This document shows positions 3,700 to 16,546 of a DNA stretch of 18,359 bases, piece by piece. This stretch comes from Cymbomonas tetramitiformis (Eukaryota > Chlorophyta > Pyramimonadophyceae > Pyramimonadales > Pyramimonadaceae): contig LGRX02013989.1 in the NCBI GenBank assembly GCA_001247695.2, positions 1 to 18,359 of the forward strand, read 5' to 3'. Numbering within the stretch: the stretch's first letter is position 1; each line of letters starts with the position of its first letter. Made by a program: the position numbers and the translations under genes. Under the pieces are notes generated by a model. It did no database searches. It was given only the letters and a program-made list of their open reading frames with translations, and was not told the DNA's origin.

Positions 3700-4258
3700 T
3701 CATAATAATTTATGACATGACATGACATGACATGGTATGACATGTATGACAGGTATGACACGTATGACATGTATGACACATATGTCATCGGTCATAACCC
3801 TGACAGAGGTTGGTAGCCCGTTGTAGGTGGCCGCAGCCGCCGACGAGCTCCAGCCTCCGTACTGATTGAACTCGAAATCAGTAACCTGGTCAGCCGCAGC
3901 CACCGCCGTGGCCCCACCAGACCGCAGGGACTGGGTCCCATACAGCTGCCTCAGAGCCTCGGGGTCCAGCCCAGAGGCCTCACCAAGCATCCTGAACAAG
4001 TACCTCCTCAGCTGAGGATAATCCAGCCTCTTCCCCGTCAGGCAGTCAGCCGACGGGTCCCGCTGAAACCGCCTGCCATCAATCTGCTGAAACAGTGGCT
4101 CATCGGGTTGCACTCCCCGTGCAATCTGGGTGTCAACCCACCTCTGACTGACCTCCACTGGGTACATAGGCTGCCCCTCCGCCGCCCGGGCAACCTCCAC
4201 CAGCTGACTATAACTGTACTTGTCCGTCTTCCGCTTCTCCAAGAAGGTGGTCATGTGG
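3700..4258 (-). pseudogene. tyrosine recombinase, C-terminal half (DIRS)
   Basis: This is the catalytic half of a phage-integrase-fold recombinase that would join the circular DIRS cDNA to the genome. Counting from the ATG at 4254, it contains FLEKRKTDKYSYS (residues 4-16, the usual beta-strand after the first catalytic Arg), GTQSLRSGGATAV (106-118, the HxxR box), QYGGWSS (131-137) and TYNG, whose Y144 would be the nucleophile. The box normally reads H-S-L-R; here the His is Gln (Q108), which would weaken or abolish catalysis unless the family tolerates it. The last 30 or so residues come from the adjacent repeat. It is cut from its N-terminal half (4899-5422) by a 640-bp insertion, and the frame is continuous if one copy of the target duplication and the insert are ignored. 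Confidence 0.88.
3718..3790. repeat. short-period TGACAT / GTATGACA tandem repeat
   Basis: Four TGACA-containing 5-mers pass into 10-bp units of the type GTATGACATG or GTATGACACG. On the minus strand these supply the last, low-complexity residues of the recombinase frame (the VIHVIRVIPVIH-like tail), so the frame runs past the real protein end into repeat DNA. The same motif, reverse-complemented, makes up the array at 15516-15584. Confidence 0.8.
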
Positions 4259-4898
4259 CTATTACCCTTCGGGTGGCTTAAGCCACCCTAACAGCGATAT
4301 AGGGTGGCTTAAGCCACCTTAACGTTTTCAATTATTACGGGAGCTATCGGTACCGGAAGCTAGATTTTTTAAGCTCAAAATGACGGCGGCATTGTCTTCT
4401 TTTAGACACTATGTGCACTATTAGGCGAGCCCAAGTTCCCGGTGAGCAATTTTGGGAAGTATCCAAGAGGGTGCAACATTTAGTAAAATTTGAGCGATTT
4501 TCCCGGTTTTTGCATACCCATGCTACTTCAACCGAGATTTTGAGGGTCAAGATGACCTCGGATCAAACTTTTGGCAAGACACTGCAGAAAGAGCAGCTCG
4601 AGATCTTGACAACATGGGTCTCCAAATTTTGAAAGCGTCTTAGAGGAAGCCCCCGGTGAGCTAATTAGCTTAAGGTGGCTTAAGCCATCTTAAGGAAAAT
4701 TGGGAAATACCCACCCTACTTCAACCGAGATTTTGAGGGTCAAGATGAACTCAGATCAAACTTTTGATTAGACACTGCAGAAAGAGCAGCTCAAGAACTT
4801 GACGACATAGGTCTCCAAATTTTGAAAGCACCGCCGAAGAAGCCCCCATGAGCCCTTTAAGTTAAGGTGGCTTAAGCCACCTTAAGCTGCGGGTAATA
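4259..4898. mobile_element. 640-bp non-autonomous DNA element with 6-bp target duplication
   Basis: The insert is flanked by direct repeats ATGTGG at 4253-4258 and 4899-4904. Its ends are inverted: TATTACCC at 4260-4267 and GGGTAATA at 4891-4898. Inside are four copies of the 16-bp palindrome GGTGGCTTAAGCCACC (4272-4287, 4303-4318, 4674-4689 with one mismatch, and 4866-4881), two near the left end and one near the right end. A block of about 142 bp starting at 4523 is repeated at 4716. There is no transposase. Removing the insert and one target copy restores the recombinase frame exactly between its two halves. The superfamily is not recognised; a 6-bp duplication fits only a few eukaryotic groups. 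Confidence 0.85.
4523..4881. repeat. 193-bp direct duplication inside the 640-bp insert
   Basis: The segment starting CTACTTCAACCGAGATTTTG at 4523 recurs at 4716. Similarity continues through GACACTGCAGAAAGAGCAGC and GTCTCCAAATTTTGAAAGC to the palindrome GGTGGCTTAAGCCACC that closes each copy. The two copies differ at a modest number of positions. The short open frames here carry no recognisable domain. Confidence 0.85.
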
Positions 4899-5422
4899 AT
4901 GTGGGTCTCACAGAACTTCATATCCCGCAGCCTCACCTTCTCCGCACAGTCATACCGCCAAAAGCCTGTCCACACGTCCAAACCCAGTGTAGCAAACATC
5001 TGCCGAGTGACCCCTCCCAGCATCAACCAGCAACGGGCACCACTCTGCACGAATGCAAACTCCAGCGGCTCCTTCCTGTTCAGCCGCCTGTCCCCCAGCC
5101 TCCTGTGAGCCGCCTCCCGTACCGCGGCCACCAGCCGATGAGAAGTGGGATTCCGGTCCGCCGGGACCAGAGCCAAGTCATGAGCAGTGAAGACCATAGC
5201 CGAAGCCGTCTTCACCACAGAGAACGTCCTGGCCGCATTGGCTATGTACTGCAAGTACATAGCCACCGTGACCGGGTCGGCAGGAACAGGCACTTTGGGC
5301 GGGTCACGGTCCTGACAGAAGGCCTGGTACCGCACGAACACCCGAGAGTAGCCCCGCATGGTGCTACCCTCCCGGGTGCCAGACACCGCCAACAGCATGT
5401 CCGCCCCAGGGCTCTTCATGAA
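4899..5422 (-). pseudogene. tyrosine recombinase, N-terminal half (DIRS)
   Basis: This encodes the helical core-binding domain and the start of the catalytic domain. From the ATG at 5419, residues 1-110 match the SAM-like DNA-binding part (STMRGYSRVFVRYQAFCQ at 19-36; ADPVTVAMYLQYIAN at 47-61). Residues 140-172 are the first catalytic block, with WTGFWRYD carrying R155, the expected first catalytic arginine, and RDMKFCETH just before the break. The chain then runs into the 640-bp insertion at 4898. That ATG may not be a true start: with the 579-bp insert removed, the frame continues upstream without a stop into the methyltransferase domain, so the recombinase was probably the C-terminal part of the pol polyprotein. 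Confidence 0.86.
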
Positions 5423-6001
5423 TACTTTGATTAGATTTGATTAGTTTTAAAATGCTTAAATCATAATTTGATTAGTACGGCGAAGGTCCGAATCATGACT
5501 TGACTAGTACTGCGATCGCCCAACTCATGACTTAATTAGTACGGGGTTGGTCCAAATCATGACTTGATTTTTAGGAAATAAGGCCTAATCAAATCAAAAA
5601 TCATGATTACTAGTGTGATTAGTACCCATATTGGTGAACGTTTTAAGTTCAATTCACATTGCATTCATTTCCCGCGATAGGCCGCGCGCAAGCACGTGGG
5701 AGGCTTCTCATCTCCGGAATAAATTGCGGGCTGTCGAACAGACCTGACGCAACGAATAGATGGCTAGAACTGGAACTGCGTCAGTCCGTCGGGCGAGATC
5801 GGTCGGGTGGCGCGGGAAAATCGTGCATAGTAATCACGTTTCGAATCAAGTCATGATTTATAGGTTCGCGACGAAATCATGACTTGATTCATAGGAAAGG
5901 GTCCAAATCATGACTTGATTAGTACGGTAGGGGTCCAAATCATGACTTCATTAATAGGAAATAAGGCCTAATCAAATCAAAAATCATGATTACTAATCCT
6001 A
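5423..6001. mobile_element. 579-bp non-autonomous element with 8-bp target duplication
   Basis: Direct repeats TTCATGAA flank it at 5415-5422 and 6002-6009. Without the insert, the methyltransferase and recombinase frames join in phase. Both ends are packed with copies of TCATGACTTGATTAGTACGG or variants (near 5492, 5523, 5556, 5848 inverted, 5876, 5913 and 5941), which look like subterminal transposase-binding sites. The middle (about 5650-5840) is GC-richer and has no such copies. A 42-bp stretch with AAGGCCTAATCAAATC occurs at 5572-5613 and again at 5955-5996. True terminal inverted repeats are weak (TACTTTGATTAG against TAGGATTAG). An 8-bp duplication would fit hAT-type elements, but this is only inference. 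Confidence 0.75.
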
Positions 6002-6868
6002 TTCATGAAGAGCCCTGGTCTGCCCGCAGCTGCATCTCCAGCGGGTCCGTCAACGGAGAACTGCAGCCCAGCCCACTGCTCCCCAGTGCCTACGATGCCT
6101 GCATGAAAGGCGTCACAAGCCCTGCAACCTCCCAAGGTACAGCGGGGACCGGGGCCCGCAGGCTCCCTCTCATCGAAGGAGACCCGCAAGAGGAGGACCC
6201 GAAAATCCGGCAGGCCCACCCCCCCCTCATTGTCCTTCCCGAGGCCAGGGAGGAAGGTGTCTGCAGAAGGCTGGAGCTCCGCCCACTGCACCACACAGTC
6301 TGCCAAGTGAACCCCGTCGGGACACAGCAAGACCCACCACGGCTGGAAAGTCCAGACCGGGGTCACAATGGAGGCCGCAGCCCTCTCAACCTGCAGAAAC
6401 AGCAGGAGCCTCCCGATCATCCGAAAAGGCGGGTTGCACCAGTTGACGTGCTCCCGCCAATCCGTCTGACTGAAGGTGTCAACCCCAGACGTACCTGGAC
6501 AGTGCCAAGCACTGTTGAAAGACGGGGCACCTGCACTGTCAAAAACAAGACAATTCTTATCAATTGCAAACCTGTCCCTCCACCCCCCGGCAATCCACGG
6601 ATCAGCCCACCGAAAGATTGCCGGGTTGACCATCCAGTCATCATGGTCTCTGATCTTGGAGAGGGCAGCAGCCCGGGTCTCAAACTCCCTGGGCATCCAA
6701 AGGGAGGACAAAACCACCCCGTGGTCAGCACAGAAACCATGCACCGCTAATGCCAGCTCCTGGAGCTCCTGATGCCTACTACCAGACTCCATGACAAAAT
6801 GCACAGGCTGGTTGTCACAAATGACAAGCACCCTCTTCCCTCTCAGCCTGCCAGCAACATCAAATGCC
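6002..6868 (-). pseudogene. RNase H C-terminal part plus Dam-like DNA methyltransferase domain (DIRS)
   Basis: The frame opens inside RNase H. VLVICDNQ (around 6831-6810) carries the third catalytic Asp, and LWMPREF...ALSKIRDHDDW (residues 44-66) carries the final acidic site and is highly typical of DIRS elements. It continues into the DIRS methyltransferase domain, with FNSAWHCPGTSGVDTF (105-120) and WCNPPF (131-136). NPPF is the D/N-PP-Y/F motif of N6-adenine methyltransferases, which bind S-adenosylmethionine and flip out adenine. The motif looks intact. The role of this domain in DIRS elements is not settled. It follows the reverse transcriptase after a one-base frame break near 6868 and leads directly into the recombinase, interrupted only by the 579-bp insertion. 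Confidence 0.87.
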
Positions 6869-8246
6869 CGGAGAGTGGGAGAGAGTCAAAAATGCCCCGG
6901 AGCTCCCTGAGAGTGGATGACTTCAGTCTGTCTGACATGGTCAGATAACTGTGGCCAAGCAGCTCAGGTCCCCCTAAAGACTGCTCCAGCCAGGAGCCCC
7001 ATGCCACCTCAGAGGTGTCCGCATGGACCGTATCCAGCTGGAGCCCCGCCCCCCTGGGCTCCCAAATGCCTCTCTGGTGCCTACGGAAGCCGTCAGTCAG
7101 CCAAAACTCAAGCTCTGCCCGGAGAGCATCAGAGCCCGGGACGTGAGAAGCCCACGAGCCCCAAGTCAAGGTGTCAGCAATGAGCACCGCAGCCGCCCTA
7201 GCAAACAGCCTAGTGACACCCCCTAGCACAAACCACTGGGCATTGACCAAGCCTGCAAACTTGGCTACAAGCCTCAGAGGCAGCCTATGAAACAGCCTCA
7301 ACAAGTCTGACACACAAACACGGATCTTGTTCAGAGCCTTCTCAGGCACGAACAGGACCCCCCCCTCCAGGTCTATGCCTATGCCAATATGCACAAGGGT
7401 ACGTGTGAAATACAGCTGAGACTTGGCTTCGGCTACGAGCCAGCCAGCCTCCCGCACATCCTGCATAATACGGGTCAGTACAGCCAAAGCCGCGGGGTCC
7501 GTGAGAGTGGGAGCCCTCACTGCAAACGCAAAATCATCCACGTAGGGGTGCACACGGAATCCGAGACCCCGCCACTTACCTACGAGCTCCTTGTTGATCT
7601 TCGTGAACACCCAGCAAGCTGGGGCTAGACCAAAAGGCAATACACAAAACTCAAAGAATCTACCCAGCCACTCCACAGCAACATAGGTACGAGACATCTC
7701 GTGAAGGTCAACGTGGTAGTACCCCGACTTATAATCGAAGTAAAACAACCCATCATCCTTCCTAAGCACGTCTATGAAAGGTTGGAGGTGCTCATACTTG
7801 AACTTAGGAAAGATTAAGAAAGCATTGAGCCACTTACCGTTGAAGATCAGCCGTAATTTGTCCCGAGAGTCGTCCACCATTAAAGGTAGGACAACCCGCG
7901 GCTTCCCCGAGACTTCTCTCATCAAGGCGCCCATAAGCACACACTCCTGCACAGCCTTAGTGACAAAGGCAGTATGCCTAACAGCAGACACGTGATTAGG
8001 CAGGTGCACTCGAGGCGGAACCCTGCCATCCTTAAACTTCAATTTAAAACCGTTCTCGATCCAAGACATAACGTACGAAGAGCGCACGAAAGTCCGCCAA
8101 AAAGAAGCTCGCTCCCTAAGTCTACCCGCAACGTGAGGCACAGGCACGTCCTGCTCACACAAGGGGACGGCCTCGCCAATCTCTTCCACAGACAATTCAA
8201 GACCTGAAACACAAGGAAAACAACAGCCCGCAGGCCAAAAGTTCAT
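6843..8246 (-). pseudogene. DIRS reverse transcriptase with RNase H N-terminal part
   Basis: This 467-codon frame is the polymerase that copies the element's RNA into DNA. Motif A is FDYKSGYYHVD (170-180, catalytic D171), motif B is LPFGLAPACWVFTKI (203-217) and motif C is HPYVDDFAF (233-241, with Asp pair 237-238). Thumb and connection follow, then the RNase H start: HADTSEVAWGSW (409-419, D410) and STLRELRG (444-451, E448). The last residues, after about 460, are out of phase: the expected continuation lies one frame over in the next entry, so the gene is broken by what looks like a single-base deletion near 6868. The ATG at 8246 is the first in frame, but a pyrimidine-rich tract ending in CAG (about 8199-8218) suggests the coding exon might begin a little later. 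Confidence 0.93.
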
Positions 8247-8362
8247 TACAATTTAGGGTTTCGTCCCCAAGAGTTACATTAAGGTTGGGCATTCCACCAC
8301 AACCGCAAAGCATTCCGCTAAGCACATTGTTCTAGCCATCGTGGCTCTACATTCTCACAATT
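8247..8362 (-). other. gag-pol spacer of the DIRS element
   Basis: About 116 bases separate the gag stop (8363-8365) from the first in-frame ATG of the reverse transcriptase. No domain is encoded in it. Just inside the pol frame, the minus strand reads TTTTCCTTGTGTTTCAG, which resembles a eukaryotic 3' splice site, so gag and pol may be joined or separated by splicing. No matching donor was fixed. Confidence 0.4.
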
Positions 8363-8987
8363 TTAACGGTCAGTGCCTCTGCCACGGCCTCTGCCGGCTG
8401 AGCGCGGCTGTGAGCATTGGTTCTGGTGGTGACCCCACTCGTTACAATTCCAGCATTGGAGCTGGCTGCCACGTCCTGCCTGAACAGGCGGTGGTGGCGG
8501 AGGCCCTTAGTTCGCCCCTTGGCAGCCGCAGCTTGCGCGGCGTGGAGCTTCTCAGCTTTCACTTCCTTTTCAGCTTTACGCATACAGTAATCACTCACCT
8601 TTAAGAAAACCGGAGATTTGGGGTCAGCCAGCTAATTCCACCAACTTGCGTACCCCCCCCCGCCAGCGCCAGCGTCCTATGGAATCGGTAAGAATTAGCA
8701 AGTATTTTCTTTCGATCAGCCAGCAATTCTCTTAAAAGTCCAATGATACACACTTAAAAAAGGCGACATTTTCAAAATTTTCAGCCTGCGGCGCCAGCAC
8801 CCATATTTCTTATTTTCGAGGATTCCATAGCTCAAAAAAACCAGCCAGCTTTTCTCGACAACTTCGGTACCCCCCCCCCTCCCAAAAGCTGGCTGGTTTC
8901 TTATCGCCGGGTTTTCTTAAAGGTGAGTGATTACTGTATCCCCCACAAACTTGTGAGGCGTTGCAAGATGCCATTGCCTCTGCCCTA
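8363..8987 (-). pseudogene. gag C-terminal part with CCHC zinc knuckle (DIRS), truncated and interrupted
   Basis: On the minus strand, CWNCNEWGHHQNQC is encoded at 8455-8414, a textbook C-x2-C-x4-H-x4-C nucleic-acid-binding knuckle. An arginine/glycine-rich tail (AGRGRGRGTDR) follows, then a stop at 8363-8365. Upstream, a lysine- and alanine-rich helix (AEKEVKAEKLHAAQAAAAKG) lies in another frame, so gag has a frame break near 8500. Further upstream the coding frame is interrupted by the MITE at 8585-8936. If that insert and one TA are ignored, the frame stays open through 8940-8987 (HLATPHKFVGDM-like residues). It is then cut by the satellite array, so the capsid part is missing. Gag would package the element's RNA. 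Confidence 0.75.
8585..8936. mobile_element. mariner-like MITE, 352 bp, TA target duplication
   Basis: The ends are near-perfect inverted repeats of about 30 bp that start CAGTAATCACTCACC (8585-8599) and end GGTGAGTGATTACTG (8922-8936). TA flanks both sides (8583-8584 and 8937-8938). CAGT-type ends with a TA duplication fit Tc1/mariner-derived MITEs. A strong internal hairpin pairs AACCAGCCAGCTTTT (8839-8853) with AAAAGCTGGCTGGTT (8884-8898), and two runs of nine to ten C are present. There is no transposase. It sits in the gag frame of the DIRS element, which becomes continuous when the insert is discounted. Confidence 0.85.
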
Positions 8988-10276
8988 CGAATACAAACTC
9001 AAACACATCCCCATGGATGTATATTACCACCCACGACCCCATCCCGCCATTCCCGCTCATCCCTAACCCACCCGCCCCACGCCACCCTCCCACTCAGCGC
9101 TCACCCTTAAATCCCACACCCCCCTGTGGCCAACCCCTCAGGCCACCCCACCTCCACAGCAGGAGTTCGATGCCAACCGACCCATGGCGTTAATACAATC
9201 TCAAACACACCCCCGTGGATGTATGTTACCACCCACGACCCCATCCCGCCATTCCCGCTCATCCCTAACCCAACCGCCCCACGCCACCCTCCCACTCAGC
9301 GCTCAGCCTTAAATCCCACGCCCCCCTGTGGGCAACCCCTCAGGCCACCCCACCTCCACAGCGGAAGTTCGATGCCAACCGACCCATGGCGTTAATACAA
9401 ACTCAAACACACCCCCGTGGATGTATATTACCACCCACGACCCCATCCCGCCATTCCCGCTCATCCCTAACCCAACCGCCCCACGCCACCCTCCCACTCA
9501 GCGCTCACCCTTAAATCCCACACCCCCCTGTGGCCAACCCCTCAGGCCACCCCACCTCCACAGCAGGAGTTCGATGCCAACCGACCCATGGCGTTAATAC
9601 AAACTCAAACACACCCCCGTGGATGTATATTACCACCCACGGCCCCATCCCGCCATTCCCGCTCATCCCTAACCCAACCGCCCCACGCCACCCTCCCACT
9701 CAGCGCTCAGCCTTAAATCCCACACCCCCCTGTGGCCAACCCTCAGGCCACCCCACCTCCACAGCAGGAGTTCGATGCCAACCGACCCATGGCGTTAATA
9801 CAAACTCAAACACACCCCCGTGGATGTATATTACCACCCACGACCCCATCCCGCCATTCCCGCTCATCCCTAACCCAGCCGCCCCACGCCACCCTCCCAC
9901 TCAGCGCTCAACCTTAAATCCCACACCCCCCTGTGGCCAACCCCTCAGGCCACCCCACCTCCACAGCAGGAGTTCGATGCCAATCGACCCATGGCGTTAA
10001 TACAAACTCAAACACACCCCCGTGGATGTATATTACCACCCACGACCCCATCCCGCCATTCCCGCTCATCCCTAACCCAACCGCCCCACGCCACCCTCCC
10101 ACTCAGCGCTCAGCCTTAAATACCACACCCCCCTGTGGGCAACCCCTCAGGCCACCCCACCTCCACAGCGGAAGTTCGATGCCAACCGACCCACGGCGTT
10201 AATACAAACTCAAACACATCCCCATGGATGTATATTACCACCCACGACCCCATCCCGCCATTCCCGCTCATCCCCT
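8988..10276. repeat. 202-bp satellite array, about 6.4 copies
   Basis: The marker CCCATGGCGTTAATACAA recurs at 9181, 9383, 9585, 9786 and 9988, and as CCCACGGCG at 10190, giving a monomer of 202 bp (one of 201). Monomers are over 90 percent alike by eye and fall into variants: GCAGGAG or GCGGAAG before TTCGATGCC, and TGTGGCC or TGTGGGC. The partial monomers at the two edges share CATCCCCATGG where all internal ones read CACCCCCGTGG. Open frames on both strands (62 to 156 codons) are repetition products: 202 is not a multiple of three, so they shift frame at every copy. The array replaces the missing 5' parts of the elements on both sides. Confidence 0.95.
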
Positions 10277-10660
10277 TCGATGTTGACGCGTGTTGTGACC
10301 TGGGTGGACGAACCGTCAAGTAGACGCATATTGGACTGATTGTCTGCGACAGCAGTGGAGGGGAAAGCACGTCTGGTGTAATCCCCCACACTCCAGCAGT
10401 CATATCTCCATCGAGGCAGTGTTGCGCAAGTATGTGGATGAATGGCGGCAAGACCCTGCGCATACCTCGGCAGTGTTCCTTCTACCGGACATCCAGGTTC
10501 GCATGCCTCAATGGAGGCGACTCTTCAGGATGGCTGGTATGAGGCTGGTGGAAGTGATACCTACTCATGACGAACGAGGAGTACCCACCCAGCTGTTCGA
10601 GACTCCTGACGGTGTACTCCACGACCTTCCGTGGCCCGTGCTGGTGGTGCATGCTCCCCC
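10277..10660 (+). pseudogene. Dam-like N6-adenine methyltransferase domain of the Ty3-like element
   Basis: FDVDACCD is encoded from 10276 in one frame. Then, from about 10305 in the next frame back, comes a continuous run with AYWTDCLRQQWRGKHVWCNPPH, split here as AYWTDCLRQQW (10326-10358) and GKHVWCNPPH (10362-10391). This matches the phage/retroelement Dam-like family (FDxDxC followed by WCNPPY). The downstream part FLLPDIQVRMPQWRRLF and LPWPVLVVHAPP also fits that fold. The motif reads NPPH, with His where Tyr or Phe normally stacks on the flipped adenine, so activity is doubtful. The frame break lies between 10299 and 10320. Its position just ahead of integrase is where RNase H usually ends in Ty3-like pol. 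Confidence 0.74.
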
Positions 10661-12150
10661 TACCCGACAGCTAGCGCCAAGAGTGCGGCATCCCCGAGTG
10701 GCGCCTCCGATAGTGCGACAGGGTAAGGCTGCTAAGACCCGCGATGCTTCGAGCCTCCCCACGGACGTTACATTCCTGGAGTCCCTGCACGATGAGTACG
10801 CACGTGCCGGCCCTCTTCAACAACTGCGGGATGACATCCTTGCGGCCCCGCACCATGCCACGAGGGACTTCCGCATCGTCGGGAACCTACTGTGGCGTGT
10901 AGCCGCGGGACGGTACCAGTTGGTCCTCGGCGAAGACTCTCCTTTGCGAGAGGTAGTCTTCAAGGATTCCCACGACTCCACCACTGCAGGTCACACTGGC
11001 CGGGAGAAGACGCTGGAACGAGTTCCACGCAGGTTCTGGTGGGAAAATGCCTCCGAGGACGTGGCAGGATGGGTGGCCTCATGCCCTACGTGTCAAGCGG
11101 TTCGTCCCCGGGCATCCTACCCCGATGGATTGTTGAATCCGCACGCTATTCCTCAACGTAACTGGCAAGATGTGAGCGTGGACTTCGTTACAGGGTTGCC
11201 GCTCACCGCCCAGGGGAATGACGCCTTCGTCACCTTTACGTGCAAGCTGAGCAAAATGGTACACCTTGTGCCCATGGAATTTTGGGGACAGCTCTGCGCA
11301 GACGGTAGCCCGCATCTACTTCGACGTGGTCTGGAGGCAGCATGGAGCCCCCATGAAGATTGTATGTGACCGTGACCCCAGGTTCCAAGACTCGTTCTGG
11401 CGTGAGCTAATGAGACTTATGGGGGTGCGGGTGGCTTCTACCACTCCGTACAACCCTCGTTCAGACGGGCAGGCGGAACACACCAACAGGGTGGTCGAGG
11501 ACATGTTGCGCTCCTTCGTGGGTGCCAATCCGGATGACTGGGACCTGTACATGACAAACGTGGAGTTTGCTATCAACGACTCGCGCAGTGACGTCACAGG
11601 ATTCACTCCCTTTGAGCTGTGCTACGGGGTGTCTCCAATGTCTCAGCTGGACCTGTTCCTGGAGGCTGCGACTCTCCCTGGCTCTGCGCGACGAAAATGG
11701 GGGGTGGGTACCGCCCATGAGATGGCTGTGAAGTTTTCGTCGCAGTTGCGGGACGCGCGTGGCCGCCTTGAGTTGGCTCAGCAGCGCCAGCGGGAGCAGT
11801 TCGACCGGCGTCACAAGCAGCATAGGTACGCAGTGGGGGATCTGGTATGGATCGAGGCTCGTCACCTGACGGAGAAGGTGATGGACCGTGCGCTGTGCCG
11901 GAAGCTCGGCAAGCGTTGGCACGGACCTGTAACTGTCGTGGAGTGCTTCTACAGCGATTTGCAGGCGGAGCTGGCAGAGGCGGACCGCGGGGCATCGGTG
12001 GCTTATCGGTTGGCTCTACCACTGCATTGGCGCATTCACGACGTGTTTGCACAGCGCCGCCTGAAACCATACGTTTTCGGCATGGATGAGTTTGCATCTC
12101 GAGCACAACTGCCTATACCTGACCCGGTAATGGTAGATGGGCAAGCGGAA
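10661..12150 (+). pseudogene. Ty3-like integrase (HHCC zinc finger and DD35E core), frameshifted
   Basis: This would insert the element's DNA into chromosomes. The zinc finger has HDSTTAGH (first His codon 10971) and CPTC (Cys codons 11082 and 11091), spaced as in Ty3 elements. The catalytic triad is intact at codon level: D in DVSVDFVTG (11181), D in CDRDPRF (11368) and E in GQAEHTNR (11476), the last two separated by 35 residues. HGPVTVVE and the LHWRIHDVFAQRRLKPY block (about 11917-12072) form the GPY/F-type C-terminal module. Between the first and second Asp the reading frame shifts by one base near 11270-11282, so the upstream frame (open to 11369) and the downstream frame (11266-13212) each hold part of the protein. 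An inserted base is the simplest explanation. Confidence 0.92.
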
Positions 12151-12340
12151 GCTCACGTGGACAAAATTCTGGCGTATTGTGTACGCATGGTCAAGGGTAA
12201 ATCAGTGGAGGAATGGAAGGTACGCTGGACGGGCTACTCGGCAGCTCACGACCAGTGGCGCTCCAGAGACAAGATGGACAGAGGCGGGGAGAATCAGCAG
12301 CTCAAGGAGTTCGAGGCACGGCGGTTGGGCATGCAGGCGG
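12151..12340 (+). other. chromodomain-like segment of the integrase
   Basis: VDKILAYCVRMVKGKSVEEW (starting 12157), then KVRWTGYSAAHDQWRSRDKM, then QQLKEFEARR reproduces the beta-sheet-plus-helix pattern of integrase chromodomains (IL..R, W-K/R-W-x-GY, a second conserved Trp, LKEFE). Such domains steer integration by binding chromatin marks. One or more aromatic cage positions appear to be replaced (VRMV in place of an aromatic), as in some Ty3-like chromodomains, so histone-mark binding is uncertain. It is fused directly ahead of the cytosine methyltransferase-like domain. Confidence 0.7.
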
Positions 12341-12539
12341 ACATGCTGAAGTCCGTTGAGCATGGCCGACGTCAACGTCAACAGCGACAGCCCGTTCACC
12401 TTGGTGTCACTTTATCCCAGCTAATGGAACACCAATGTGACGTCCCGGAAGTGGATTCTCCACCGGAAGACTTCTGTCTGCCGTGGGAGCGGGTGGAAAT
12501 CTTGGAGAATGGAGAGCTAGTGGTGATCACCGACCTTGA

Positions 12540-13212
12540 AGAGCGAAAGACCCGGCCAGTGAGAATCTTGGTGTTGTTCAGCGGAACCGGATCGGTGGAA
12601 AGAGAGTTTGCAAAGTGCTTTCCGTCTGCCTCGGTGGTTACGCTCGACAACGACCCACGATGGCAACCCGACCATCTCGCATCAATGGAGGACTGGGACC
12701 CCACTCAGTACCCACCGGGATTCTTTGATGTCATCTGGGCCAGCCCTCCATGTACCCAGTACAGTCAGGCGCGCACTACGGGAGGACCTCCTGATCTGGA
12801 AGGAGCAGACAAGAGTGTGAAATGCACCCTGGATGCTATTGAGTACTTGAAGCCCAAGCACTGGTTTCTTGAAAATCCTGAAGGAAGATACCCGAATGCA
12901 CTGCGGTTGCGGTCAGTGGTTCGTGAACTGCCACAACCTCTTTTTTGCACCTACTGTAAGTATGGGGAGCGATATCGTAAACCAACGTGTATCTGGACTA
13001 GCTCACCTCCACCAACGCCATTGCTGGAGTGCACCTCGCGGACACCTTGCGCATGCAAATGGGCCACCGGAGGGCACCCTGAAACTGCTCAGCTTGGACC
13101 ATCGTCTTCACAGCAACCAGGAGCGCGAGATGCTCACGCCGTGTACCCAGTACCGGCTCCGCTGTTGCGTCATCTCTTCCACCATCTTCAGTTCGGGGAG
13201 TTTGATACCTGA
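12540..13212 (+). CDS. C5-cytosine methyltransferase-like C-terminal domain of the Ty3-like polyprotein
   Basis: This is the last 220 or so residues of the 648-codon frame 11266-13212. Motif I (SAM binding) is VLFSGTGSVEREF (FSG from 12577). An acidic residue follows the second strand (VVTLDND). Motif IV is WASPPCTQYS, with the nucleophilic Cys codon at 12751 in a PCT form of the PCQ motif. Motif VI is FLENPEG (Glu codon 12871). CKYGERYRKPTCIWTS (from 12951) and HPETAQLGPSS close the domain as in the short C5-methyltransferase-like proteins of phages and algal elements. It is shorter than cellular DNMTs and has no clear target-recognition insert. No stops or frame breaks occur in it. It ends 50 bases before the probable 3' LTR, so it is inside the element and not a neighbouring gene. 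Confidence 0.87.
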
Positions 13213-13248: not shown

Positions 13249-13263
13249 TGAGGGGGGAGGAGT
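13249..13263 (+). promoter_or_regulatory. polypurine tract of the Ty3-like element
   Basis: The G-rich run GAGGGGGGAGGAG lies 37 bases after the polyprotein stop and directly ahead of TTGTACCGGG. The layout is the same as in the TRIM at 16588-16601, where a G-rich tract is followed by TTGTGCTAGG and the LTR is proven. It would prime plus-strand DNA synthesis. Confidence 0.7.
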
Positions 13264-13284
13264 TGTACCGGGAGGCACGGGCAG
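13264..13284 (+). other. probable start of the 3' LTR of the Ty3-like element
   Basis: TGTACCGGGAGGCACGG begins with TG immediately after the polypurine tract, as an LTR should. Its 3' end cannot be placed, because no second copy exists in the window and the sequence runs at once into the minisatellite. The LTR may include the minisatellite and part of 13640-14256. Confidence 0.5.
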
Positions 13285-13628
13285 CCCATGGCTATGCCCC
13301 AAGGCGTATGCCCCAGGGGTATGCCCCGAGGCGTATGCCCCATGGGTATGTCCCGAGGCGTATGCCCCATGGGTATGCCCCAAGGCGTGTGCCCCAGGGG
13401 TATACCCCAAGGCGTATGCCCCAGGGGTATGCCCCAAGGCGTATGCCCCATGGGTATGCCCCATGGGTATGCCCCGAGGCGTATGCCCCAAGGCGCATGT
13501 CCCAGGGGCAAGGCATGTCCCATGCCCCATGCCCCATGCCCCGAGCGTGCATGCCCCGAGGCGTATGCCCCAAGGCGCATGCCCCAGGGGCAAGGCATGC
13601 CCCATGCCCCATGCCCCGAGCGTGCATG
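13285..13628. repeat. TATGCCCC minisatellite (13-14 bp units)
   Basis: Units such as GGTATGCCCCAAGGC, GCGTATGCCCCATGG and CATGCCCCATGCCCC are repeated about 25 times. A longer duplication is visible where GCATGTCCCAGGGGCAAGGC (13495) recurs as GCATGCCCCAGGGGCAAGGC (13578), 83 bp on. At least five reading frames stay open across the array, giving repetitive peptides rich in Gly, Pro, Met and His. These are repeat artefacts and not genes. Confidence 0.92.
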
Positions 13629-13684
13629 CCCCACTCGCGAATAATGGGGAGTTATCGGATATTCACATAAGTGAGCGAGTGGGG
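13629..13684. repeat. 10-bp inverted repeat closing the minisatellite
   Basis: CCCCACTCGC (13629-13638) is the exact reverse complement of GCGAGTGGGG (13675-13684), with 36 bases between. It marks the change from the GC-rich minisatellite to AT-rich DNA and could be an LTR or element edge. Confidence 0.6.
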
Positions 13685-14256
13685 AAAATAATCGATGACA
13701 AAGCAGATTTCAGGAGAAGATCTGTAATGAAATGATTCATGGTAGATTCCAAGAGAACATCTGCAATGGCAATACAAGTATCATGATCTGCCTGATGATT
13801 GGTGGAGGAGTAACAGAATCAGGCATGGGCTGCTGGTAATTGGCCGATGACATGTCAATCTAGGAATCCTGCTAGTGAGTTAAAGAGCAACATGTTGAAA
13901 GGGGAAGCTTGGGAAAAGTGAACCTCAATTAGTGTTGATCAAGAGAAATTAAGAACAAGTTGTACATGTTAGTGTTAGACTGTATGCAAAGACTGAGCAT
14001 AAGGATATAGATGTTATAGGTTTGCGACCATGCATTATATCGAAAAGTGATAGTATTGCTCGGCTGTGTAGCCAGTATATGTCATGCAAATAAACAGTGG
14101 AATATAAGGCTAGAAGCCTATGTGATACACCAAAAACAATAGAAAACATAAAAAGAAAAGAAAAGAAAGAAGATAAAAGAAAAGAAAGAAGATAAAAGAA
14201 AAGAAAGAAAAATAAAGAGATAAATATGTATAAGTTATTAGAAGTGTGCCTGGTAC
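13685..14256. other. AT-rich stretch with purine-rich microsatellite, no gene
   Basis: I recognise no coding region. At 14139-14224 almost every plus-strand base is A or G in an imperfect 21-bp-type repeat built on GATAAAAGAAAAGAAAGAA. The 116-codon minus-strand frame over it is Phe/Leu/Ser-rich because of that tract and is not a membrane protein gene. Part of this stretch may be the 3' LTR of the Ty3-like element. Confidence 0.55.
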
Positions 14257-14747
14257 AAAACGGGCGAAAACGAAGGGCCAAAAATCGCGATTTTTTCATA
14301 ATTCCAAGCTTGGGAAAAGATTTTTTTCATGATCCAAAAACGCGGCGAAACCTTAGAATTGTCGCGGCAAGGTGCGGCGAACTTCTAAACTCGCTTATTA
14401 CATCCCCCTAGTCACCCCACACGCTCACGCGCACTCAAAACGGGCGAAAACGAAGGGCCAAAAATCGCGATTTTTTCATAATTCCAAGTTGGGAAAAGAT
14501 TTTTCCATGATCCAAAAACGCGGCGAACCTTAGAATTGTCGCGGCAAGGTGCGGCGAACTTCTAAACTCGCTTATTACATCCCCCTAGTCACCCCACACG
14601 CTCACGCGCACTCAAAACGGGCGAAAAAGGGCGAAAAAGGGCGAAAATCGCGATTTTTTCGCCATACGAGCAGATTTTTTCTTTTGGCAACCAAAAAATC
14701 CATACACATTAGTGTTGTCGCGGCGAGGTGCGGCGAAATGCGGTGAA
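14257..14747. repeat. 176-180-bp tandem repeat, about 2.7 copies
   Basis: AAAACGGGCG begins units at 14257, 14437 and 14613. Each continues with AAAATCGCGATTTTTTC, a variable middle containing CCAAAAA, then GTCGCGGC(A/G)AGGTGCGGCGAA. The first two copies are nearly identical except for small indels in their T and A runs. The third is shorter, with three GGGCGAAAA words in a row, and ends near 14747. No protein is supported. Confidence 0.9.
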
Positions 14748-15717: not shown

Positions 15718-16238
15718 TGTGCTAGGACAACGCACGGTGTCATGCGCAGATGACTCAGCAATGTCATACATGCCAGAAGTGTCATACGCGCCTTACAGCA
15801 TTAGCGCCCGAGACCCCTGTTGAGGAAGAGACCCCCCTTATATGGGAGTACACAATACCACTGTACTGTGTAATAATGTGACATGTGGAATACTGGCACA
15901 TCATACTGCATGATAATGTAGTACAAGCATATGATAGGTTGATGAGACTTGGCCATGCTGACTAGGATTACCTCAGAGAGCTGAGTGAATAAGTAATGGC
16001 CAAGGCCAAAGAAACAGTTGAGATTTCTAGAGTAAAAACAGCCGCATGGCAAAAGTCAATATAATACCTAATTCTTACTGCAAATATATGCAATGAGTCT
16101 GGACATAGTTCCTAAGAATCGACATAGCTTGATTAGTCTTATACAGTATAGTGCATAATATAGAGCCCTGCACTATATATGATCCACCAGTAGTTTCACA
16201 GTCACTGTCAAGTAGAAGGTTTAGTACTGCCTCCTACA
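15718..16238 (+). repeat. 5' LTR of the TRIM
   Basis: It starts TGTGCTAGGACAACGCACGG and ends GCCTCCTACA, giving canonical TG...CA ends over 521 bp. A TATA-like CTTATATGG (about 15838-15846) could serve transcription. TGTCAT words recur near its start (15739, 15765, 15781). It differs from the 3' LTR by single bases such as GCAGATG against GCGGATG, and carries ATACAGTATAGTGC where the other has ATATAGTGC. Confidence 0.95.
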
Positions 16239-16240
16239 AA

Positions 16241-16546
16241 ATGGTATCAGTGTGCTACGCACCACCATGGCACGTGTATGGCATCCCCGCAGCCTTGCTT
16301 AAACAATTATTCAGCTCTCTACCGGTGGAACAACCCGTGGGGGCAATCGCAGCGGTGTGTGAATACCTAGCGGGGCTGCTCTGGAGAGATGAAAATGAGA
16401 CAGATCTCAACGATGAAAGAGTCTGCGCTAATCCGGAAGAAGCTGACGAGGAGCCTGTGACCTTGATGCCGGAGTACAGCCCTACGCCGCCACCAGTGAT
16501 GTCCGACGACAGCGAGTGGGACACCATGGGCTCCGAATCAGCCTAA
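16241..16546 (+). CDS. short ORF of the TRIM, 101 codons, unknown function
   Basis: The ATG at 16241 overlaps the primer-binding site by all but its first base. The stop is TAA at 16544-16546, 42 bases before the polypurine tract. The first 50 residues form a mildly hydrophobic, helix-prone part (IPAALLKQLFSSLPVEQ, then AIAAVCEYLAGLLWRD). The remainder is strongly acidic and proline-rich (PEEADEEPV, YSPTPPPVMSDDSEWD). I do not recognise the family. A gag remnant is possible because it is the only internal ORF, but it has no zinc knuckle. The frame is also open upstream through part of the LTR (to 16151), so transcription from the LTR could give a longer product. Confidence 0.55.
   Translation: MVSVCYAPPWHVYGIPAALLKQLFSSLPVEQPVGAIAAVCEYLAGLLWRDENETDLNDERVCANPEEADEEPVTLMPEYSPTPPPVMSDDSEWDTMGSESA
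16242..16250 (+). promoter_or_regulatory. primer-binding site for initiator tRNA-Met
   Basis: TGGTATCAG follows the 5' LTR after three bases and complements the 3' end of eukaryotic initiator methionine tRNA (the usual site in many elements begins TGGTATCAGAGC). The match runs nine bases and then departs. It would prime minus-strand synthesis. Confidence 0.88.

Follow-up and report, generated by a model that had tools for sequence, protein, structure and literature searches.

A Ty3-type retrotransposon family of Cymbomonas tetramitiformis with Dam-like and cytosine-C5-methyltransferase-like domains on either side of its integrase

The DNA analyzed here (the window, 18,359 nucleotides) is the entire contig LGRX02013989.1 of the alga Cymbomonas tetramitiformis, and its positions 10277-13212 are a 5'-truncated and frameshifted copy of a Ty3-type long terminal repeat (LTR) retrotransposon. 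Inspection of open reading frames (ORFs) and searches with Pfam and other hidden Markov models (HMMs) located a Dam-like region, an integrase, a chromodomain, and a region resembling cytosine-C5 methyltransferases (C5-like) there, all on the plus strand. The pol remnant starts at approximately 10276, where a tandem array of a 202-bp unit, repeated head to tail about seven times (8918-10274), stops; gag, protease, reverse transcriptase (RT), and RNase H are all gone from this copy, and the array takes their place upstream. The pol region falls into three pieces, as its frame is broken near 10.3 kb and again near 11.28 kb. A preliminary description of the locus had assumed one plus-strand polyprotein region; strand and domain order held, but the single frame is found in intact copies of the element and not in the window copy.

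The first residues of the Dam-like domain, PFDVDACCDLGGR, are encoded at 10273-10311 in a frame that differs from that of the remainder (ORF 10120-10320; E 7e-5 with an HMM of the family's Dam domain). The remainder of this PF05869-type domain lies at 10308-10724 (residues 4-142 of ORF 10299-11366; E 3.6e-72 with the same HMM) and has the motif NPPH, as opposed to NPPY in intact copies. It is followed by the H2C2 zinc-binding domain of the integrase at 10938-11111 (PF17921, E 9.7e-20) and by the integrase catalytic core at 11169-11457, which is broken by the frame shift near 11.28 kb; its rve match in the second frame stayed below the cut-off (E 8.3e-4, 20.0 bits, cut-off 32.6), and the DD35E residues were identified by eye in an intact copy. 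The SH3-like Tf2-1 domain of the integrase (PF24626, E 3.3e-7) is located at 11992-12075 and the chromodomain (PF00385, E 3.5e-6, 27.3 bits, cut-off 25.1) at 12154-12321; these two and H2C2 pass their Pfam cut-offs in the window copy. The C5-like domain at 12541-13209, assigned by HMM, PHROG, and fold, has intact SGTG, SPPC, and ENP motifs and is followed by the pol stop; with PF00145, it scored 18.1 bits (cut-off 22). A polypurine tract at 13250-13262 adjoins the 3' LTR at 13264-14257 (TGTACC...GGTACA), the only LTR retained in the window copy, with approximately 88% identity to the LTR of the copy on contig C366. Within this LTR, a 27-bp tandem repeat (ATGCCCC...) occupies 13285-13554, and the C366 LTR has a similar array. 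The Dam-like domain anticipated at 10277-10660 was thereby recovered, as were the integrase, chromodomain, and C5-like domain at the places where they had been expected.

Because the upstream part of pol is lost and the frame is broken, the full architecture is not visible in the window and was worked out from further copies elsewhere in this genome. A search of the C. tetramitiformis genome with the window's 653-aa integrase-chromodomain-C5 frame yielded 68 scored matches (window included) from 16,416 candidates, all with at least 96% identity and all reaching the end of the C5-like domain or ending at most two residues short of it. The match was stop-free in 64 of the 68 scored copies, and in nine copies it fell within an open frame of 2,776 aa or longer. 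Intact pol frames comprise approximately 2,860 aa in the order protease (AP)-RT-RNase H-Dam-integrase-chromodomain-C5. In the copy on contig C1868, read unaltered, the pol frame of at least 2,858 aa is overlapped, in a different frame, by ORF1 (gag), which bears a CCHC knuckle (CFACGSLEHLVANC, identified by eye). Pfam matches above the cut-off in an intact copy were obtained for AP, RT, RNase H, Dam, integrase H2C2, SH3_Tf2-1, and Chromo; rve (E 1.4e-5, 25.7 versus 32.6 bits) and PF00145 (19.8 versus 22 bits) stayed below. The Pfam search that had been proposed for this locus thus gave scores above the cut-off for PF05869 in the intact copy and for the chromodomain, and scores below it for PF00145, the rve core, and PF05869 in the window copy itself.

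The copy on contig C366 has a length of 16.4 kb and is bounded by LTRs of 1,192 and 1,179 bp that differ by two mismatches and 13 gap positions; it has a 5-bp target-site duplication (CAAAC), the LTR ends TGTACC...GGTACA, and a polypurine tract. The near-identity of its LTRs speaks for a recent insertion of this single copy, and the family was likely active recently. The pol order AP-RT-RNase H-integrase, the direct TG..CA LTRs with polypurine tract and target-site duplication (one copy), and the gag CCHC knuckle in a frame overlapping pol assign the element to Ty3/Gypsy, and the chromodomain C-terminal to the integrase, above the PF00385 cut-off in the window and the intact copy, assigns it to the chromoviruses. 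No match to a tyrosine recombinase was found in the pol of the intact copy, which has an H2C2 integrase with a DDE core instead, so that the element does not classify as DIRS.

Similar frames are not restricted to the window's family. A second family has frames of 2,724-2,729 aa on three contigs. When the genome was searched with protein P0028, 20 contigs were scored, P0028's own and 19 with 72-80% identity, with frames of 2,515-2,753 aa; the matches were stop-free in all 20, the matched parts span both methyltransferase domains, and for one of the 19 relatives (L042), both domains were verified by domain search. A family consisting of pseudogenes only was ruled out by the stop-free long frames in multiple copies and families.

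The Dam-like domain of an intact copy matched PF05869 with E 3.2e-13 (50.1 bits, cut-off 28.1), compared with E 2.3e-4 (21.3 bits) for the broken window copy. Its predicted fold resembles phage N6-adenine enzymes and PCIF1. The motif [DNS]PP[YFW] is of the catalytic type of N6-adenine methyltransferases, and NPPY in the family's intact copy fits it. A search of PDB sequences with the Dam profile gave nothing significant (best E 0.63), and the VIA list leaves room for other families. The assignment of the Dam-like region to a phage-like N6-adenine-methyltransferase fold, already suspected in the preliminary description, is supported by HMM and structure prediction, with methyltransferase activity as a prediction. 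A chance occurrence of the Dam motif was ruled out by the Pfam/HMM and fold matches. We consider it distinctly unlikely that the domain modifies RNA, e.g. the cap-adjacent adenosine of the element's transcript, rather than DNA.

The C5-like domain matched PHROG DNA methyltransferase families (E 2.3e-16 and 5.9e-11), has a SAM-binding motif I, and in its predicted fold matches M.HaeIII/DNMT. Relatives of the window's family pass the PF00145 cut-off (P0045, 24.4 bits; P0068, 28.3 bits), and the PPC and ENP motifs, with the predicted catalytic Cys and Glu, are invariant in all 22 C5 rows of alignment A2, from which P0105 was omitted. These data support a phage-like cytosine-C5 methyltransferase domain with predicted activity. 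As had been presumed, the C5-like domain is not an independent gene adjoining the element, since a single frame encodes it together with RT, integrase, and chromodomain. Searching prokaryotic genomes with the C5-like domain gave three loci, at two of which the C5 frame is present and the retrieved flanks contain no further domains of the element. The third, L058, lies on a contig binned as Verrucomicrobiaceae and encodes RNase H-Dam-integrase-chromodomain-C5 in one frame (41% identity in C5); it is very likely misbinned and the same kind of retroelement. Downstream of its pol, an 852-aa open frame is present (L058:4109-6664). IMG/VR contains 13 loci with C5 relatives (27-38% identity) and no other element domains in their flanks. 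The predicted Cymbomonas protein P0046 (CYMTET_8168) combines ankyrin-type Pfam domains with a piece of C5 and may be a gene model spanning an insertion.

The distribution of the two domains was analyzed with 139 distinct proteins (P0001-P0139) from three protein searches with 38, 25, and 121 matches (the best 120 of the 121 were used). A tree of RT-RNase H with 109 rows was calculated by a quick method with SH-aLRT support and no bootstrap, after removal of eight proteins by hand and of short-RT rows by rule. In this tree, 39 of the 109 rows form a single clade (SH-aLRT 100) that is marked by the Dam-C5 pair and has members from Cymbomonas and metagenomic assemblies. The Dam-like domain was found in 33 of the 39 rows (in P0070 only with E 3e-4); five of the six rows without it end before its position, and in P0105 a long spacer gave no match. 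C5 was found in 22 of the 26 rows whose frame extends at least 400 aa beyond the integrase. The expectation that neither domain would be absent from members was borne out in the window's family, the intact copies of which keep both, but not throughout the RT clade, where four rows are without a C5 HMM match and P0105 has a full-length spacer without Dam. With these profiles, neither Dam nor C5 was detected in chromovirus rows of Haematococcus, pine, and Fusarium. The polyproteins P0036 and P0041 both have a PHD finger (PF00628) among their precomputed domains; of the two, only P0041 is annotated with a chromodomain.

The stretch from Dam to C5 was stop-free in all 14 compared copies and gap-free in 11 of them. 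Over the matched regions, the L012 copy is 98% identical to P0001 in Dam and 100% identical to P0047 in RT, both of which are recorded as C. tetramitiformis proteins. Between L012 and L004, which represent two sub-lineages of the window's family, 40 synonymous and eight nonsynonymous differences were counted in the entire stretch (Fisher p 3e-18), with synonymous/nonsynonymous counts of 10/0 for Dam, 18/4 for the integrase, and 2/0 for C5. Two more within-family pairs, which share sub-lineages with the first, gave 11/1 and 8/0 for Dam, and 4/0 and 3/0 for C5. Comparisons between families, in which synonymous sites are saturated or nearly so, gave dN values of 0.19 for Dam and 0.18 for C5; for an unsaturated pair of the second family, a dN/dS of 0.10 was obtained for Dam (Fisher p 3e-8). 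Judged from these comparisons, purifying selection is strong on Dam, and C5 points in the same direction with few differences within the family. Among 20 complete members, protein distances correlated with those of RT with r values of 0.85 for Dam, 0.88 for C5, and 0.85 for the integrase, and the correlations of Dam with the integrase (0.74) and with C5 (0.76) were below these RT values; none of 2000 permutations matched any observed correlation. At the level of sequence, the Dam-C5 pair is inherited along with the element, together with RT and integrase. Transitions at 21 family loci affected 3.3% of CG, 4.6% of CHG, and 1.8% of CHH sites, with polarity set by majority, two sub-lineages mixed, and one insertion counted twice, and no methylation signature is claimed. 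The number of GATC sites in 3 kb (six observed, 11 expected) was uninformative.

The spacing of the domains suggests that Dam and C5 both belong to the integrase side of pol. C5 is located at a steady median distance of 253 residues from the integrase (SD 14, 21 members) and 73 residues from the chromodomain (SD 10, 15 members), and Dam is separated by a median of 76 residues from the integrase zinc domain (SD 32) versus 162 from RNase H (SD 40, 21 members). We consider it fairly probable that the two domains flanking integrase and chromodomain travel with the integrase and methylate the element's cDNA or the neighborhood of the insertion. Protease cleavage would leave a Dam-integrase-chromodomain-C5 protein, which the chromodomain would guide to chosen chromatin, and both enzymes would act on DNA, with the marks being laid in the particle or the pre-integration complex. 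The benefit may be an epigenetic self-marking that would serve to recognize new copies, to protect the cDNA or shelter it from host attack, or to tune the chromatin state at the new site.

A number of points weigh against this proposal. That Dam and C5 stay joined to the integrase after processing is an assumption. For the Dam model, Foldseek returned only two PDB matches at E ≤ 0.001 (best 3.3e-4). The C5-like domain is short, stays under the PF00145 cut-off in the window's family, and has C-terminal motifs (YCxYGxxYxKxT, HxxTAQxGP) that we take to be unlike the canonical motifs VIII-X. The C5 differences within the family are few (Fisher p 0.057, 0.0032, and 0.014), and in the unsaturated pair of the second family, in which C5 is incomplete, dN/dS was 0.35 for the integrase and 0.34 for the chromodomain. 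The first two protein searches select for Dam or C5 and only the third for RT alone. The clade rows without a C5 HMM match are P0060, P0063, P0065, and P0070. The C-termini of P0060-P0063 and P0070, which make up the relic alignment (P0065 is outside it), match the C5 profile (hhalign 97.5%, E 6.7e-12) and have lost PPC and ENP; P0105 deviates with SPGC and ESP in place of SPPC and ENP. Among 54 Dam matches with a readable motif, inside and outside the clade, NPPY/NPPF is lost in 17, and altered motifs (SPPH, SLSS, SPPC, HGLF, NFPF, and others) occur in several families. From the lost Dam motifs and the C5 relics, it follows at the sequence level that catalysis is not required everywhere, and a further role of the domains, in DNA binding or in shaping the intasome, is suggested by the fact that the fold persisted when catalytic motifs were repeatedly lost. 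These persisting Dam domains and C5 relics, together with P0105, are what favors a view of both folds as mainly DNA-binding or structural modules of the integrase, involved in intasome architecture or in the recognition of targets or ends, in which catalysis has disappeared or plays a minor part. As a general explanation this is unlikely: PPC and ENP are invariant in the A2 rows, NPPY/F is kept in 37 of the 54 Dam matches, and the window's family keeps both motifs.

Near the 39-row clade, P0067 has Dam before and C5 after the integrase; in more distant elements, the two domains occur in other orders. In P0068, NUDIX and C5 precede protease-RT-integrase, and a Dam-like domain comes last; in P0045, Dam and C5, both above the Pfam cut-off, stand ahead of RT-integrase. 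Dam is first in P0038, P0078, and P0097, and C5 is first, without Dam, in P0044. A far-reaching version of the methylation proposal, which we put forward only tentatively, is that in an ancient Ty3-type lineage of Cymbomonas and other hosts, the integrase became a double enzyme that writes N6-methyladenine (6mA) and 5-methylcytosine (5mC) at insertion. The pair would have been assembled more than once, and, since P0068 and P0045 exist with their different orders, the carriage of both marks would itself have been selected.

Methyltransferases borne by retrotransposons are known: DIRS elements have a methyltransferase domain, DNMT3-type enzymes are described for both Gypsy and DIRS elements (Klebsormidium and Symbiodinium), and LINEs of Symbiodinium encode cytosine enzymes of other kinds. 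KnitGypsy-Dnmt3 of Klebsormidium nitens (de Mendoza et al. 2018, PMC5890265) shares with the Cymbomonas element a Gypsy-type pol with a cytosine methyltransferase under purifying selection in a green-lineage alga. In contrast, its enzyme is DNMT3-type, its repeat arrangement is DIRS-like, and the excerpted text mentions no adenine enzyme, whereas the Cymbomonas element has a phage-like C5, ordinary LTRs with a target-site duplication, and Dam. SymbioDIRS-Dnmt3 and SymbioLINE-Dnmt (PMC5890265) likewise are retrotransposons bearing cytosine methyltransferases but, as described in the same excerpts, belong to other classes with one methyltransferase type each. DIRS1-like retrotransposons (PMC3266345) have a similar RT-RNase H-methyltransferase series in pol; in the portion of that source consulted, they have a tyrosine recombinase and one methyltransferase domain, unlike the Cymbomonas element with its DDE integrase. 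The Ectocarpus Sola transposon (PMC12477816) encodes a prokaryote-like base methyltransferase that is proposed to modify the transposon's own DNA, but it is a DNA transposon with a separate methyltransferase gene and ParB as DNA-binding partner in place of integrase and chromodomain.

In Cymbomonas itself, a Chlamyvir-related chromovirus with Ty3/Gypsy pol and chromodomain was described inside viral elements (PMC10675990), and it is possibly identical with the Dam-C5 family. The main text of PMC10675990 mentions chromodomain Ty3 elements, and the word 'methyltransferase' does not occur in it. A review (PMC6338049) mentions the Ty3/Gypsy and DIRS clades jointly as including elements that encode DAM and DCM, and proposes that methylases borne by retrotransposons have antiviral roles. 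With the many endogenous viruses reported for Cymbomonas (PMC10675990) and the resemblance of both domains to phage enzymes, the methyltransferases might be counter-weapons that shield the cDNA from host or viral nucleases or attack competing DNA elements, rather than setting chromatin; the fusion with integrase and chromodomain suggests action at integration, and we regard this explanation as very unlikely. No report of a Dam-C5 pair in one LTR element was found among the listed titles, abstract openings, and passages of the open-licence PubMed Central literature; Repbase lies outside this search, so that an earlier description may exist. What appears to be new is the presence of Dam and C5 together in one LTR element.

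Host DNA methylation targets retrotransposons, and a lineage with two base-modifying enzymes around its integrase would write the types of marks that hosts use against such elements. The system is young, conserved, and present in many copies, and nanopore sequencing of its algal host has been published; the role of transposon-borne methyltransferases can be directly addressed in it, namely whether new copies carry 6mA, 5mC, or both, and in which sequence context. In these elements, phage-like enzymes have become lasting components of eukaryotic retroelements. The repeated loss of catalytic motifs with the fold retained is a natural test of structural versus enzymatic roles.

Elsewhere in the window, remains of a DIRS-like element are found on the minus strand at 3700-8252, with an RT (PF00078, E 1.5e-9) and a weakly Dam-like WCNPPF segment (E 6e-4). 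An acquisition of the Dam domain from this adjacent element was considered and is not favored, given the weakness of that profile match. The appearance of two ORFs downstream in the DIRS-like remains suggests a tyrosine recombinase; they gave no Pfam match. Between 15718 and 17121, a block of approximately 520 bp is duplicated, with its copies 884 bp apart; since ORF 16133-16543 resembles the C-terminal tail of C5 (E 0.0018), the block is likely to represent the 3' end of an element from a further such family.

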